Assembly: GCA_018304165.1 (NCBI GenBank)
Contig: JAGVWS010000018.1
Span: 1 to 33,113, forward strand
Reading direction: 5' to 3'
Length of the DNA stretch: 33,113 nt
Source: Candidatus Pacearchaeota archaeon
Lineage (GTDB): Archaea > Nanobdellota > Nanobdellia > Pacearchaeales > GW2011-AR1
Below the pieces are notes generated by a model. That model ran no database searches. It had not been told where the DNA came from and saw only the letters and a list, made by a program, of their open reading frames with translations. How positions within the stretch are numbered: the first letter of the stretch is position 1; every line of letters begins with the position of its first letter. Below are positions 4,406 to 28,347 of the stretch, piece after piece. Both the position numbers and the translations under genes were made by a program.

Positions 4406-4552
4406 GAATTGCTTCTCATCATAGATAATTACTTATTTCTAAAATAATTATGAAGTAATGAGCAAGAGCTCAATAACCGAACACTAATTTGAGCGTCTTG
4501 TTCTAAATAAATGTTTGCACTGGTTTACAATAGCTGGTGCTGTGGAGAAAAA

Positions 4553-4969
4553 ATGGAAACCCAATACAAACATTATGAAAGCTCTGTAGGCAACAACTTG
4601 CAGACGATACAGATAACAACGAAGTACAGATATGCGATGATGCAAAAGGAGGTAATTGAAAATTATTGCAAGATTGCAATACAAGAAGCATGCAAAAGGC
4701 ACAAAATCGAAGTGGTTATCATTGAAGTTTTGAAAGAACATGTGCACATGATTGCAAATTGTCCAAGAACGTTATCTCAAGCAGAAATGATGCAGATAAT
4801 TAAGGGATTATCAGCATACATTATTTTTAGGCTATGCCCTAACCTTAGAAAAAGATATCCTAAGGGACATTTTTGGAGCGAAGGATACTTTTGCGAAGGG
4901 TGTGGAAGTGATTTTGAAAGAGCATTGAGTTATGTAAAAAACCAGAAACAGCACCACTCCCTTAATTAA
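4553..4969 (+). CDS. tnpA: IS200/IS605-family Y1 (HUH) transposase TnpA
   Basis: This transposase is 138 residues from the ATG at 4553. The open frame extends back to 4511, but the 4553 start follows GGAG at a good distance and matches the usual length of about 140-150 residues. The HUH metal-binding pair is the HVH in KEHVHMIANCP. The catalytic Tyr is in ALSYVKNQ near the C-terminus, with a downstream Gln as in Y1 enzymes. The intervening GHFWSEGYF block is typical of the family. It nicks and rejoins single-stranded DNA at hairpin-marked ends. Unlike IS605, no tnpB accompanies it, so it is IS200-like or a domesticated REP-type (RAYT) relative. Confidence 0.88.
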   Translation: METQYKHYESSVGNNLQTIQITTKYRYAMMQKEVIENYCKIAIQEACKRHKIEVVIIEVLKEHVHMIANCPRTLSQAEMMQIIKGLSAYIIFRLCPNLRKRYPKGHFWSEGYFCEGCGSDFERALSYVKNQKQHHSLN

Positions 4970-5203: not shown

Positions 5204-6034
5204 ATGGCTGATGAAGAACGAAGCATTAAGTTGATTCCAAGAGAATTGCTTGAGATAGGCTTTCCCATAGCAAGATTTCTCTCTGAAGAAGAGCATGGCG
5301 CTTACGAAGATAAATGCGGGGGGTTTGGCGAAAAGGGAAGAAAGTCTCTTGATATTTCAAGAAGAGGCTCTAATCTGTTTAAAGTTTTTCTTTTAAACCA
5401 GATGGGCATTAAAACTACAAGCATTCAGGACCTGGATTCTATTGCTTTTGGCAATCCTGATTTTTTAAGAGGTACTTATGAAGATGCGCCTGCAGTTGCT
5501 TTGAGAAGCAATGGCGATTATTACAGTCCTAATGATGGCATTGCGAAAGGCTTAGCAAAGCTGGCTGGCAGGACGGAATTTCCAGATACAGCAGTTATTG
5601 AAGGCTTGAAAGTAGTTGATGATGATAATTCTTATTATGGCTTATCATTGAATGCTGGAGATAGTTTCAGGGTTTTTGAGGCTCCTGATTTCAACAATTC
5701 TAATGATGGAAGAAGATTTAAGAGAATTAATCCTGATTATTCAATTGATTTTGATGACGAAGGAAGAAAGAAACTCCATACTAGGGATGTGGGCTTGTCT
5801 GGGGTTTACCTGTACAGTGATCTTGACCTGAATTCCGGGGACGACGGCCTTGCTAACTCCGATGATAGTGGCAGGGTGCTTGTTGTAAGCGCCGGAGGCG
5901 CTTCGCACGAAAAAATCGATCTTCTTATTTCTGATTTAAAAGCTGAAAGAGACAGGCAAAGAGCAGGGGTTGATAAGAAGTATGATGACGCCTTAAAGGC
6001 CGGATTAGAAATCATGAAAGGAAAGCGCAATTAA
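5204..6034 (+). CDS. Protein of unknown function, paralogous family member A
   Basis: This is a 276-residue soluble, acidic protein with no signal peptide or membrane segment, and I do not recognise the family. It aligns over most of its length with the protein at 27691 (B). Shared blocks are GSNxF (55-59 here), ALR-S/T-xxDxYxxNDxxAKxLA (around 99-121), SYYGL (143-147), LxGxYL (198-203) and GRVxVVS (223-229). A charged, probably coiled-coil tail follows (236-276; EKIDLLISDLKAERDRQRAG then KYDDALKAGLEI). It is a single gene next to the IS and convergent with a glycosyltransferase. The even spacing of conserved aromatic, Asp and Asn residues suggests a folded ligand-binding domain, but no catalytic motif is evident. 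Confidence 0.7.
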   Translation: MADEERSIKLIPRELLEIGFPIARFLSEEEHGAYEDKCGGFGEKGRKSLDISRRGSNLFKVFLLNQMGIKTTSIQDLDSIAFGNPDFLRGTYEDAPAVALRSNGDYYSPNDGIAKGLAKLAGRTEFPDTAVIEGLKVVDDDNSYYGLSLNAGDSFRVFEAPDFNNSNDGRRFKRINPDYSIDFDDEGRKKLHTRDVGLSGVYLYSDLDLNSGDDGLANSDDSGRVLVVSAGGASHEKIDLLISDLKAERDRQRAGVDKKYDDALKAGLEIMKGKRN

Positions 6035-8165: not shown

Positions 8166-8407
8166 CAATAAGTCAAATCATGCTATAAATAATTTAAGTT
8201 GGAAAGGAGTTGATTAATAACTAATAAAGTCAGCAATATTTTGAGCATACTATGGCTAAAATTAATCTATAGTAGCTTAATAATTATTGATAAACCTGTA
8301 ACCTGAATAAATAACAGAAGATAAAACAATTAACTAAATTGAATAACCTGCAACCTGAATAAATAACAGAAGATAAAACAATTAACTAAATTTAATAATA
8401 ACTAAAA
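8107..8407. other. Gene-free spacer between the GT4 and GT2 genes
   Basis: This 301-nt spacer holds the tail duplication above and a 52-bp direct repeat, with many stops in all frames. No ORF, RNA gene or clear promoter was found. A weak AT-rich box (AAATTTAATA) lies just upstream of the GT2 start. Confidence 0.6.
8293..8396. repeat. Two tandem copies of a 52-bp repeat
   Basis: Units at 8293-8344 and 8345-8396 begin AACCTGTAACCTG and AACCTGCAACCTG respectively. They differ at only two positions (T/C near the start, G/T near the end). The array ends 11 nt before the ATG of the GT2 gene. Confidence 0.9.
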
Positions 8408-9310: not shown

Positions 9311-9345
9311 GTTGCATTCTGTATAAGGCAAGGCACAACATTCCG

Positions 9346-9456
9346 AATAGCTTAAATAGTTAAAAATGTCACCAAGCAATCAAATAGCTTAAATAGTTAA
9401 AAATGTCACCAAGCAATTGAATAGCTTAAATAGTTAAAGATGCCCTCAAGCAATTG
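9346..9456. repeat. Three tandem copies of a 37-bp repeat
   Basis: Units start at 9346, 9383 and 9420, each beginning AATAGCTTAAATAGTTAAA. The first two then read ATGTCACCAAGCAAT and the third ATGCCCTCAAGCAAT. Each unit carries a TATA-like TTAAATA and an ATG 12 nt after it. The junction sequence ATTGAATAGCTTAAATAG resembles the end of the upstream gene (ATTGAATCGACTAAGTAA). Confidence 0.9.
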
Positions 9457-10120: not shown

Positions 10121-11848
10121 ATGGACGCCAAGGATTCTGCAGAACCGAAGAGCAGCAGGGCAAATGAGACTGAAGAGGATAATACTATAGAGATAAGAAA
10201 AGACCGCATAAAAAAGCTGATTAAGGATAATGAGAATCTGTTGCTAATTCTCCTGCTCGGCTTTACAATAATATTCAGGCTTTATTATTTTTTCAAGCTC
10301 GGAAACCAGCCGATATGGTGGGATGAAGGGGATTATCTTGCGATAGCAAAAGTATGGGCACTGAATCTTCCCACTCCAGAATGGATGGCGCACTTCACGG
10401 GCATGCGTCCTTTATTCCTGCCCCTCCTCTGGACTCTGTTCTTTAAGATAGGTTTTGGAGAATCATTAGTCAGATTCTTCACTCTCTTGCTTCCAAGCAT
10501 TGGCTCAGTCTATGTGCTTTACCTTCTTGGAAGGGATATGTACAGCAAAAAAGTCGGGTTAGCGGCAGGAATGATGCTTTCTACATATTGGGTCTGGAAT
10601 TTCTATTCTTTCAGACTGCTTACTGACATTCCGGCAGTTTTCTTTGGACTGCTGTCATTTTACTTTTTCTGGAGTTGGTATGAAAAACAAGGAAAGCCGA
10701 AAGGCCTCTACCTGTCAATGTTATTCGGAGTCTTGGCTTTCTCAACGAGATTTCCTTATGCTTTAGTTCCCGTAACATCTTTTGCCTACCTCTTTATCAC
10801 GAGAAAGTTTAGTATATTTAAAGATAAAACAATATGGAAGGCAGTGCTTCTTGCATTAATTCTTCTACTGCCTTACCTGATTTATCTCGCAAGCATTAAT
10901 TTCGCTCCTCTTCAATTCTATTTTGGAGAGAAGGCAGTTTCTATCAAGAATCCAATTCAATGGAACCTGATACCAATGAGCTTTTCTCTGCTCCATGGGT
11001 TCTGGTTAATACTCTCAATAATAGGCCTGGTGGCGCTTGCCCCTCTATTCCTGGGTTTTGATTTGGTTTGGAAGCAGAAAGATAAGTCAATGAATCCAAG
11101 CTTGTTATTAGTTTTGTGGATGTTAATCCATTTCTTATTCTACATCGCAATAATCCGGGCAGGCAATGACCGCTGGCTATTGATGATAACAATGAGTCTA
11201 TTCATTTTGGGAGCAAAAGGAATGGTGCTTATCTATGAATATGTCAAGAAATATTCCAAAATTGTCGGAATAATAATAGCACTAATTATCTTATTGGGCG
11301 GCGCTTACCAGAATATCGCTCATTCGGTTGACTTAATTGAAGGCAAGAAAACAAGTTATATTGCAGTCAGGGAGGCTGGATTATGGCTTAGGGAAAACAC
11401 GCCTCAAAATGCCAGGATAATTACTCCTTCAATAGTCCAGAATCAATATTATTCCGAAAGGGACAGCTACGATTTATTTTATAATAATAGCCTTCTGCCG
11501 GAGGGATGCATGGACCTCTATGGAGCAACAGTTGTAAACGACAGCTGCCAAAAAGCTTCAGAAGAGCTATTCAATGAAAAAGTTGCTGTTGTAAAGCCGG
11601 ATTATTATGTCATCTCAGTTTATGAGCCCGTCTTTACCCCTCAATGGGCTTATTCTTATCCCCAAAGGAATAATCTTGCTTTCATAAATGCCTTCTTCCA
11701 GCCGGAAAATCAACAGCAGGCTGTGCTGGTTATCTACAAATTTCCGGAAGACTTCATTCCTGTTGCGCCCGGAGAAAGCAACTGCAAATTCTACGAAGAG
11801 GGGTTCTACATCCAGCACTGCAAATTCTACATCAAGCAATATCTCTAA
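10121..11848 (+). CDS. Polytopic dolichyl-phosphate-sugar glycosyltransferase (GT39/ArnT-like)
   Basis: This 575-residue protein has a charged cytoplasmic N-terminus (1-40), about ten or more membrane helices from residue 41 on, and a soluble C-terminal domain (from about 420). The first extracytoplasmic loop carries the acidic signature of the GT-C superfamily as IWWDEGDYLA (65-74), with D68/E69 as the likely catalytic pair. Such enzymes use polyprenyl-phosphate sugars on the outer face of the membrane. It may add a terminal sugar to the glycan or modify proteins directly. Two cysteines lie near the C-terminus (NCKFY and HCKFY). The GT2 at 16495, a dolichyl-phosphate sugar synthase type, could supply its donor. 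Confidence 0.82.
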   Translation: MDAKDSAEPKSSRANETEEDNTIEIRKDRIKKLIKDNENLLLILLLGFTIIFRLYYFFKLGNQPIWWDEGDYLAIAKVWALNLPTPEWMAHFTGMRPLFLPLLWTLFFKIGFGESLVRFFTLLLPSIGSVYVLYLLGRDMYSKKVGLAAGMMLSTYWVWNFYSFRLLTDIPAVFFGLLSFYFFWSWYEKQGKPKGLYLSMLFGVLAFSTRFPYALVPVTSFAYLFITRKFSIFKDKTIWKAVLLALILLLPYLIYLASINFAPLQFYFGEKAVSIKNPIQWNLIPMSFSLLHGFWLILSIIGLVALAPLFLGFDLVWKQKDKSMNPSLLLVLWMLIHFLFYIAIIRAGNDRWLLMITMSLFILGAKGMVLIYEYVKKYSKIVGIIIALIILLGGAYQNIAHSVDLIEGKKTSYIAVREAGLWLRENTPQNARIITPSIVQNQYYSERDSYDLFYNNSLLPEGCMDLYGATVVNDSCQKASEELFNEKVAVVKPDYYVISVYEPVFTPQWAYSYPQRNNLAFINAFFQPENQQQAVLVIYKFPEDFIPVAPGESNCKFYEEGFYIQHCKFYIKQYL

Positions 11849-12059
11849 TTTTACTAAATAGCTCTGGTGAATTCATCCATTCAGATCAGAAGAAAATTAA
11901 ACACATCATAACTTTTTGAGCACTATCTCTATCTCTTCAACCAAATTAAATCTTCATCATGACTACTTCTACTTCTCCAACCAAATTATATAGTTAATTA
12001 TGTTTTAGGTCTTTTTCATAATTAATTCTATCTCTCCAACCAGATTATTTAGCTTAATC
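11849..12059. repeat. Spacer holding three extra degenerate copies of the methyltransferase 3' end
   Basis: On the minus strand, the last codons of the gene at 12060-12497 read VGEIEIVLKKI-stop. Three downstream copies read NLVGEIELIMKKT-stop (12005-12046), NLVGEVEVVMMKI-stop (11946-11987) and NLVEEIEIVLKKL-stop (11906-11947). Each copy keeps frame and its own stop codon. Confidence 0.75.
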
Positions 12060-12497
12060 CTAAATCTTCTTAAGCACTATCTCTATCTCTCCAACAGGGA
12101 TTATCCAGCAAAGAAACCTTTCATAAAGATTAAATTTTTTATTATAATATCCCTCTAATAGCTGATGAAATGTAAACCATCCGAAAAACCTCTTGTGGCT
12201 TAAATCATTGTAGCCGTTTCCGTTTGAGAAGTGAGGCACTCTTATGTGCATTCTTCCGCCAGTCTTTAATATCCTTTCTATTTCCCCGAGAGTTTTGAAC
12301 AAGTCATTTACATGCTCTAGTATGTGCGAGCAGTAAATATAATCAAATTCTTCTTTTTTGAAGGGAAACGGAAATTTATCCAGATCGTGAATAACGTCTG
12401 CTTTGTATTGTGAATTATAATCCAGATTAACCCATCCTTCTCTTGGATTTTTATAATCTTTTCCGCACCCAATGTTTAATTTTTTTATCTTATTCAT
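12060..12497 (-). CDS. Small class I SAM-dependent methyltransferase
   Basis: This 145-residue protein has SAM motif I LNIGCGKDYKN (7-17), the acidic motif NLDYNSQYKADVIHDLD (24-40), and FDYIYCSHILEHVNDLFKTL then ERILKTGGRMHIRVPH, typical of Methyltransf_11-type enzymes. It is short but contains the full core. It probably methylates a glycan or a lipid-linked intermediate. It overlaps the upstream GT2 by 4 nt (ATGA), which implies translational coupling as the last gene of the operon starting at 15470. The C-terminal tail VGEIEIVLKKI is copied three more times in the downstream spacer. Confidence 0.8.
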   Translation of the reverse strand: MNKIKKLNIGCGKDYKNPREGWVNLDYNSQYKADVIHDLDKFPFPFKKEEFDYIYCSHILEHVNDLFKTLGEIERILKTGGRMHIRVPHFSNGNGYNDLSHKRFFGWFTFHQLLEGYYNKKFNLYERFLCWIIPVGEIEIVLKKI

Positions 12498-19567: not shown

Positions 19568-20068
19568 TTTCAGTATTTTTTATACATTTTTATCTTCTAA
19601 ATTTAAATAACTATTAATACTTATTAATCTAGCAACATTACTGCCTGCTCATCTTATATATTTTAGGAATTCCTTTTCTACCAGCCAACTATTATTTTAC
19701 TGCATACATCTTCTATCAACCAACTATTATTTTACTGCATACATCTTCTATCAACCAACTATTATTTTACTGCATACATCTTCTATCAACCAACTACTTT
19801 ACGTTTCTCTTGATTAATTATACTTTAGCCATAATCCTGACTGCTTTAATCATCTATCTTCAGTATTTTTAGGCGTATTAATTTAGTTATCCTTGCTTAA
19901 CCATATTAGCTGCATTAATTTAATCTAATTGTAATTGTTTATTCTTAGCATTATTTTACATTAATTATCGCATCTCTCTTTATTTATCTATCTTCATTAT
20001 TGTTAGTAATTTCGCTCTACAGTGATTATTACTGCTTTAATTACATTTATGCTCATCCATAATCATCT
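19568..20068. other. Gene-free, repeat-rich spacer between aglB and the Alg7-like gene
   Basis: This 501-nt AT-rich spacer has no long ORF in any frame. It contains the 35-bp array at 19685-19800, looser repeats of an ATTAAAGCAGT motif (coding-strand sense, near 19840 and 20035), and the promoter of the downstream gene near 19602. No tRNA-like fold was seen. Confidence 0.6.
19685..19800. repeat. Three and a half tandem copies of a 35-bp repeat
   Basis: Units start at 19685, 19720, 19755 and 19790 (partial), each beginning CCAACTATTATTTTACTGCA. The full copies are identical. Read on the aglB strand, each unit contains K-M-Y-A-V-K-stop, comparable with the AglB C-terminus K-E-L-Y-V-V-K-stop. 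The DNA core TGTATGYAGTWAA is also shared with the aglB end. Confidence 0.9.
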
Positions 20069-27690: not shown

Positions 27691-28347
27691 ATGGCAAGAG
27701 AAACTGTTTTGTATGAAGTATCAAAAACATTGGAAATAGTAAGGGTGTTAGATGCTTCTGTATTAAATGAGTATAATGAATCTGTAAGATCTGCTTATAA
27801 TTCTGATAGAGCAAGGGCAGTTTTAAGCAGATTCGGAGAATTTAAAGGAGAATTAACTGGCTCAAATACTTTTATGCTCGTCCACCTTCAGAATGCTGGA
27901 CTAGCTAAGGGGAGAATTGCAACAAGGGCAGATTTGGAAAAGGCATTGAGATTTGGCCTGAATCTCTCGGGAAATTATGTTAATTTTGGACTGGCTTTAA
28001 GAACGGCAAGGGATTCTTATTTACTTAATGACCTGCTTGCTAAGACACTGGCAGGACAATTAGACAAGAGAGAAGTTAAGATTGGAGAAGGAAAATTTAT
28101 TCCTATCTCTGCATTAGGGCTAAGAGAAGTTCCAGATTCTTATTATGGATTAGTGTTTGATTTAAAAGATGGAGCAGAAGTTGAAGATTTATCTAAACAA
28201 AGATGGAATTATGTTAAAGAAGAAGGTCTTGTCGGGGCTTACCTTGTTAGGGGCGGCGACTGGTATTCCAATGATCGTTACTTGGACAGTTCCAGTGGCA
28301 ATGGCAGGGTAGTTATTGTTAGTGGCGAAGCCACCGCAAAAATTTAG
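27691..28347 (+). CDS. Protein of unknown function, paralogous family member B, frame interrupted near the C-terminus
   Basis: This is a 218-residue soluble protein, homologous to the protein at 5204 (A). Shared blocks are GSNTF (57-61), LALRTARDSYLLNDLLAKTLA (101-121), DSYYGL (149-154), LVGAYL (180-185) and GRVVIVSGE (205-213). It stops after ATAKI, just where A continues into a 40-residue charged tail. The missing tail is present in the -1 frame directly afterwards. I do not recognise the family and no catalytic motif is evident. The leaderless promoter is like that of A. It ends the plus-strand sugar-phosphate cluster and converges on the PfkB gene. Confidence 0.7.
   Translation: MARETVLYEVSKTLEIVRVLDASVLNEYNESVRSAYNSDRARAVLSRFGEFKGELTGSNTFMLVHLQNAGLAKGRIATRADLEKALRFGLNLSGNYVNFGLALRTARDSYLLNDLLAKTLAGQLDKREVKIGEGKFIPISALGLREVPDSYYGLVFDLKDGAEVEDLSKQRWNYVKEEGLVGAYLVRGGDWYSNDRYLDSSSGNGRVVIVSGEATAKI

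Follow-up and report, generated by a model that had tools for sequence, protein, structure and literature searches.

A probable decayed tandem-duplication array derived from the end of a methyltransferase gene in an unusually repeat-rich archaeal genome

Prokaryotic minisatellites, or VNTR loci of the MIRU type, are intergenic arrays with units of tens of base pairs whose copy number shifts by slippage or recombination, and the MIRU units are members of an interspersed family. The Borg elements, giant elements of archaea, carry many unique head-to-tail arrays in their spacers, some of which begin inside the end of an ORF (PLoS Biol 2023, PMC9879509). Unit lengths of Borg repeats are divisible by three within ORFs and mostly are not in intergenic regions, and the repeats are nearly absent from related and host genomes; the arrays are perfect, A-rich, made by definition of at least three units, and located on extrachromosomal elements (PMC9879509). 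Repeat-rich species are a minority among Archaea, since more than 4 satellites per Mb were found in only 21 of 142 archaeal species (PMC6749651), in a survey whose own definition of a satellite makes its densities not directly comparable with the 33 arrays in 0.40 Mb that we describe below. We analysed a stretch of 33,113 nucleotides (hereafter the window) from a Candidatus Pacearchaeota archaeon, in which the end of a methyltransferase gene is followed by diverged copies of itself.

The methyltransferase gene (12060-12497, minus strand; 145 aa; Methyltransf_11, PF08241, Pfam E = 8e-10) lies in a glycan-assembly cluster with glycosyltransferases and an STT3-type oligosaccharyltransferase, and converges with the gene of a PMT_2-family glycosyltransferase (10121-11848, plus strand). 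The 211-bp spacer between the two (11849-12059) holds the array. Its source unit is the 3' end of the methyltransferase gene, of which approximately the last 12 codons recur in three extra, diverged copies located 3' of the stop (12060, minus strand). Copy 1 is the live gene end, VGEIEIVLKKI-stop (12060-12095; minus-strand DNA, from 12095 to 12060: GTT GGA GAG ATA GAG ATA GTG CTT AAG AAG ATT TAG). The others, all on the minus strand, are copy 2 (VGEIELIMKKT-stop, 12005-12040), which is non-coding and lies 55 nt further downstream, in a frame other than that of the gene; copy 3 (VGEVEVVMMKI-stop, 11946-11981), also non-coding; and copy 4 (VEEIEIVLKKL-stop, 11906-11941). Over its first 30 nt, copy 2 is identical to the gene tail at 23 positions, copy 3 at 22 and copy 4 at 27. 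The sum is 72/90, and when the spacer was shuffled 5000 times with its dinucleotides preserved, no sum exceeded 56. Hence, the four tandem gene-end copies reported by a previous sequence-only reading are correct in sequence and coordinates, and chance is refuted. The source assembly is fragmented (867 kb in 42 contigs, 79% complete), as an artefact would have it, but identity between copies ranges from 67% to 90%, and differences at 10-33% of the sites are most unlikely to come from assembly. Artefact or chance is thus the least credible of all the explanations we considered.

The same reading held that each copy keeps frame and a stop. The frame is preserved within every copy, but not between adjoining ones: the distances from start to start are 55, 59, and 40 nt, none of which is divisible by 3, so that the frame changes from one copy to its neighbour. 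The stop is retained in two of the copies, whereas copy 4 ends in a stop (TTATGA) that has no homology with the other stops and arose accidentally by a 1-nt shift near the end. The homology of the copies extends upstream by about 9 nt more (ATAATC..TGGTTGG), across a 1-nt indel. Since it reaches past the codons and through an indel, it was the DNA itself that was duplicated, and not a codon cassette. Copies 2 to 4 lack an ATG start and are absent from the list of ORFs of at least 60 aa; the distal copies are presumably untranslated.

The explanation that we favour, with a probability of roughly 0.83, is that of an ancient array of tandem duplications, now decayed, in a genome unusually rich in repeats. 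A stretch of 40-59 bp, bounded on one side by a breakpoint within the final codons of the methyltransferase gene and on the other by one in the spacer, would have undergone several rounds of head-to-tail duplication. The live gene would have retained the proximal tail and its stop, leaving the distal copies as untranslated relics. We infer both the order of the duplication events and their molecular mechanism, either replication slippage or break-repair duplication. Ku-dependent end joining was considered as a source and discarded, because no Ku was found in the genome (in an assembly that is 79% complete).

The genome as a whole seems prone to such events, a tendency specific to its lineage. 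We searched for arrays with Tandem Repeats Finder (period of at least 20, score of at least 100) in 402 kb of its stretches (L039-L052, L081-L088, and the window; 76.3 kb non-coding) and in 741 kb of stretches from 35 relatives (111.5 kb non-coding). The coding fractions are approximate, because gene calling simply took the longest ORF, and some contigs of the relatives were chosen for chance matches to the array, a bias that, if any, favours finding repeats there. The non-coding arrays numbered 33 in this genome against 4 in the relatives, i.e., 4.3 versus 0.36 per 10 kb of non-coding sequence, an approximately twelve-fold difference (P = 1e-9), and shuffled sequence of this genome gave none. 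They sit on many contigs of the assembly, which has homologues in common with nanoarchaeotal MAGs, and have periods of 27-88 bp, usually 2-3.5 copies, and 76-100% identity. Besides the methyltransferase array, the window has three intergenic arrays, at 8286-8398 (52-bp unit, 2.2 copies, 93%), 9345-9456 (37 bp, 3.0 copies, 90%), and 19676-19796 (35 bp, 3.5 copies, 97%). A gene edge is overlapped by 9 of the 33. The period is divisible by three in 7 of the 8 coding arrays and in only 6 of the 33 intergenic ones (Fisher P = 5e-4), which suggests that duplication is general, arises everywhere, and is filtered by selection inside genes. Duplications would thus be frequent and hit genes and spacers alike, with arrays persisting in spacers and at gene edges because out-of-frame duplications in genes are purged by selection. 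This abundance of intergenic arrays, some of them over gene ends and nearly absent in relatives, supports repeated partial gene duplication, one of the possibilities raised from the sequence alone.

How do these arrays relate to the known systems? As in Borgs, there are many independent, locus-specific head-to-tail arrays that are rare in relatives, and their periods are divisible by three in genes and rarely so in spacers. Unlike those of Borgs, they are imperfect, many have only 2.0-2.6 copies, and they belong to the genome assembly of a small archaeon; the methyltransferase array is, in addition, strongly diverged. By analogy, we would describe the pattern as Borg-type in kind, yet we stop short of classing it among the Borg repeats. 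The arrays resemble MIRU-type loci in being intergenic and tandem, with units of tens of base pairs. They differ from them in that most units are unique to their own locus in the genome sample, where the unit of the methyltransferase array, used as a query, had no significant match outside the array. A few units belong to dispersed families, which recur at as many as 9 further sites in the sample (L041 15568-15656, L083 6481-6631, and L087 2077-2177).

Other gene edges have been duplicated in this genome. A scan of 269 genes, comparing tails of 48 nt with the following 250 nt, revealed four clear cases. The methyltransferase shows the greatest divergence of the four, and another case concerns a doubtful ORF of 110 aa built of short repeats. 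In a flippase gene (Polysacc_synt, 524 aa; L041 16765-18339), the stop and roughly the last 15 codons are repeated in an array with a 47-bp unit and 97% identity (L041 18293-18386). A gene of 290 aa (L040 1187-2059) ends inside an array with a 41-bp unit (L040 2027-2134). Such fresh copies keep peptide and stop, just as in the sequence-only description, because the DNA has only just been duplicated. At L039 5709-5833, the repeated 52-bp unit runs from the end of one gene into the start of its neighbour. In this last array, the start is present in two almost identical copies that encode MI[EG]LLLALVIGII, whereas the real start reads MIELFLAFFVGII; many of the differences between the copies and the real start appear to be synonymous.

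The relatives indicate the direction of the process. The orthologous proteins in L053, L054, and L010 end in YERFLCWI[FL]PVGEIE... (WVLP in L010). This shared ending identifies VGEIEIVLKKI as the native C-terminus of the family and shows that the copies in the spacer come from the gene rather than the reverse. The sequence-only reading had asked for the same spacer in relatives. The gene order of L053 is the same, with two GT2 genes, the methyltransferase gene, and the convergent PMT gene, but the stops of the last two abut (5522/5523), with a spacer of 0 bp and no tail copies. In L010, the approximately 85 bases that separate the stop from a run of N contain no tail copy. The L053 junction, devoid of spacer and copies, implies that the array was inserted in the present lineage, and it is most simply taken as a derived feature of this lineage. 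Both flanking proteins differ from those of the relatives. In alignments with the L053 and L054 orthologues, the methyltransferase misses exactly 32 aa, in frame, and the C-terminus of the PMT_2-family protein extends some 32 aa beyond theirs. The junction between the two genes has been rearranged repeatedly, and the 145-aa methyltransferase, short of these 32 aa, may be impaired. AlphaFold models had low confidence (mean pLDDT of 44 for the methyltransferase and 58 for the L053 orthologue). They put the tail on a C-terminal strand and have the missing 32 aa span a strand and helices, a prediction too weak to lean on. The extension of the PMT_2-family protein (window 11750-11848) holds a near-repeat in which TGCAAATTCTAC occurs twice.

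A more delicate point is the conservatism of the changes between copies, which had been judged excessive for neutral decay. The minimum numbers of changes at the three codon positions are 5, 3, and 9. An excess at third positions was tried as proof of coding constraint and rejected (9/17 minimum changes, P = 0.075; 7/14 without the last two codons, P = 0.15). In neutral simulations, the observed similarity of the peptides was rarely attained when scored by BLOSUM (P 0.0001-0.0022) and somewhat more often when scored by identity of amino acids (P 0.02-0.07). The tests are post hoc, on 30 sites, and the statistical case for the claimed excess is weak to moderate; it is partly accounted for if selection acted on the live end between duplications. 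We also built a mixed model, with live and dead branches, in which the deep split among the copies occurred while the tail was still the live end; its tree and accepted changes were picked by us, from our own reconstruction. With it, the BLOSUM result weakens to P 0.01-0.03 and identity to P 0.11-0.16, and the changes assigned to dead branches are spread over codon positions as 3/3/5, with no significant bias. The mixed model makes a partly coding-like look expected and leaves a residual conservatism. Under the duplication-and-decay reading, this look would come from short divergence and probably from changes gained while the tail was the live end between duplications.

A number of observations count against a simple relic. 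First, neutral simulations seldom yield peptides this similar, and the P values of the mixed model are still low by BLOSUM. Second, the live tail is best matched by the copy farthest from it. Simple stepwise duplication would not lead one to expect this; a conversion event, or a larger duplication with a later deletion, is compatible with it. Third, most other arrays are 90-100% identical, so that the methyltransferase array, far more diverged, is an outlier in age. Alternatively, the spacer might be a reservoir of C-termini, in which silent copies recombine with the live tail, or convert it, and so swap the last strand of the methyltransferase. Every copy encodes a plausible full-length tail with a stop, changes are conservative, and a conversion tract would give copy 4 its 27/30 identity against 22-23/30 for the intermediate copies, the one hint of such exchange in the data. 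Yet the swaps would exchange near-synonymous residues in a structural strand, with no obvious benefit of diversification; neighbouring copies are mutually out of frame; the L053 orthologue has no array; similar arrays of this genome occupy spacers, mostly without a gene end; and no other gene in the genome sample has diverged, complete tail cassettes. We consider such a reservoir very unlikely. The same low credence goes to the silent tails acting as real donors, with occasional conversion renewing the last strand and constraint acting when a copy becomes the live end, even if this fits the similarity between copies 1 and 4 and the conservative changes. On present evidence, the array is not a store of spare protein ends.

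The conservative changes would also be accounted for if the copies were the tails of diverged alleles left behind by recombinational gene replacement, each having once been coding in a different lineage. The diverged gene head of the L039 array, with differences that are coding-like on inspection, goes in the same direction. But a short piece of the spacer further upstream (ATAATC..TGG) is common to the copies, a sign of local head-to-tail duplication, and a duplication model with live and dead branches yields a partly similar pattern, so we give xenologous remnants little credit.

A last alternative leaves the protein aside. The repeat might be selected as DNA or RNA, as a terminator or as a processing or binding element between convergent genes, and overlap the gene end by chance. 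Its location and the pyrimidine-rich plus strand of each unit agree with this, but neither strand forms a more stable fold than shuffled sequence does (z = 1.55 and 0.00), and scans of the window for Rfam families and tRNAs gave no matches. The unit has no copy elsewhere in the genome sample, and the array used as a DNA query against 180 genomes of the family, with no second member of the genus among them, retrieved no related element, just short AT-rich chance matches. Nor are arrays concentrated in convergent spacers in the genome sample (4/50, against 22/143 for tandem and 3/51 for divergent spacers). It is therefore improbable that such an element explains the repeat, and the RNA-level selection at gene ends that had been proposed from the sequence finds no support in folding, in Rfam, or in the relatives.

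In itself, a decaying copy of a gene end in a spacer is a modest curiosity. What gives it broader relevance is that short tandem duplications arise and persist in this genome at about 12 times the non-coding density of its relatives, also across the starts and ends of genes. The lineage could be used to study the growth of spacers, the lengthening and shortening of gene ends, and the replication or repair trigger of the duplications, a question common to Borg elements. Judged by eye, the window also encodes a 152-aa ORF resembling IS200/IS605-type (Y1) transposases (4511-4969) and two paralogue-like ORFs (5204-6034 and 27691-28347) that share YYGL and SGRV-like motifs near their ends.
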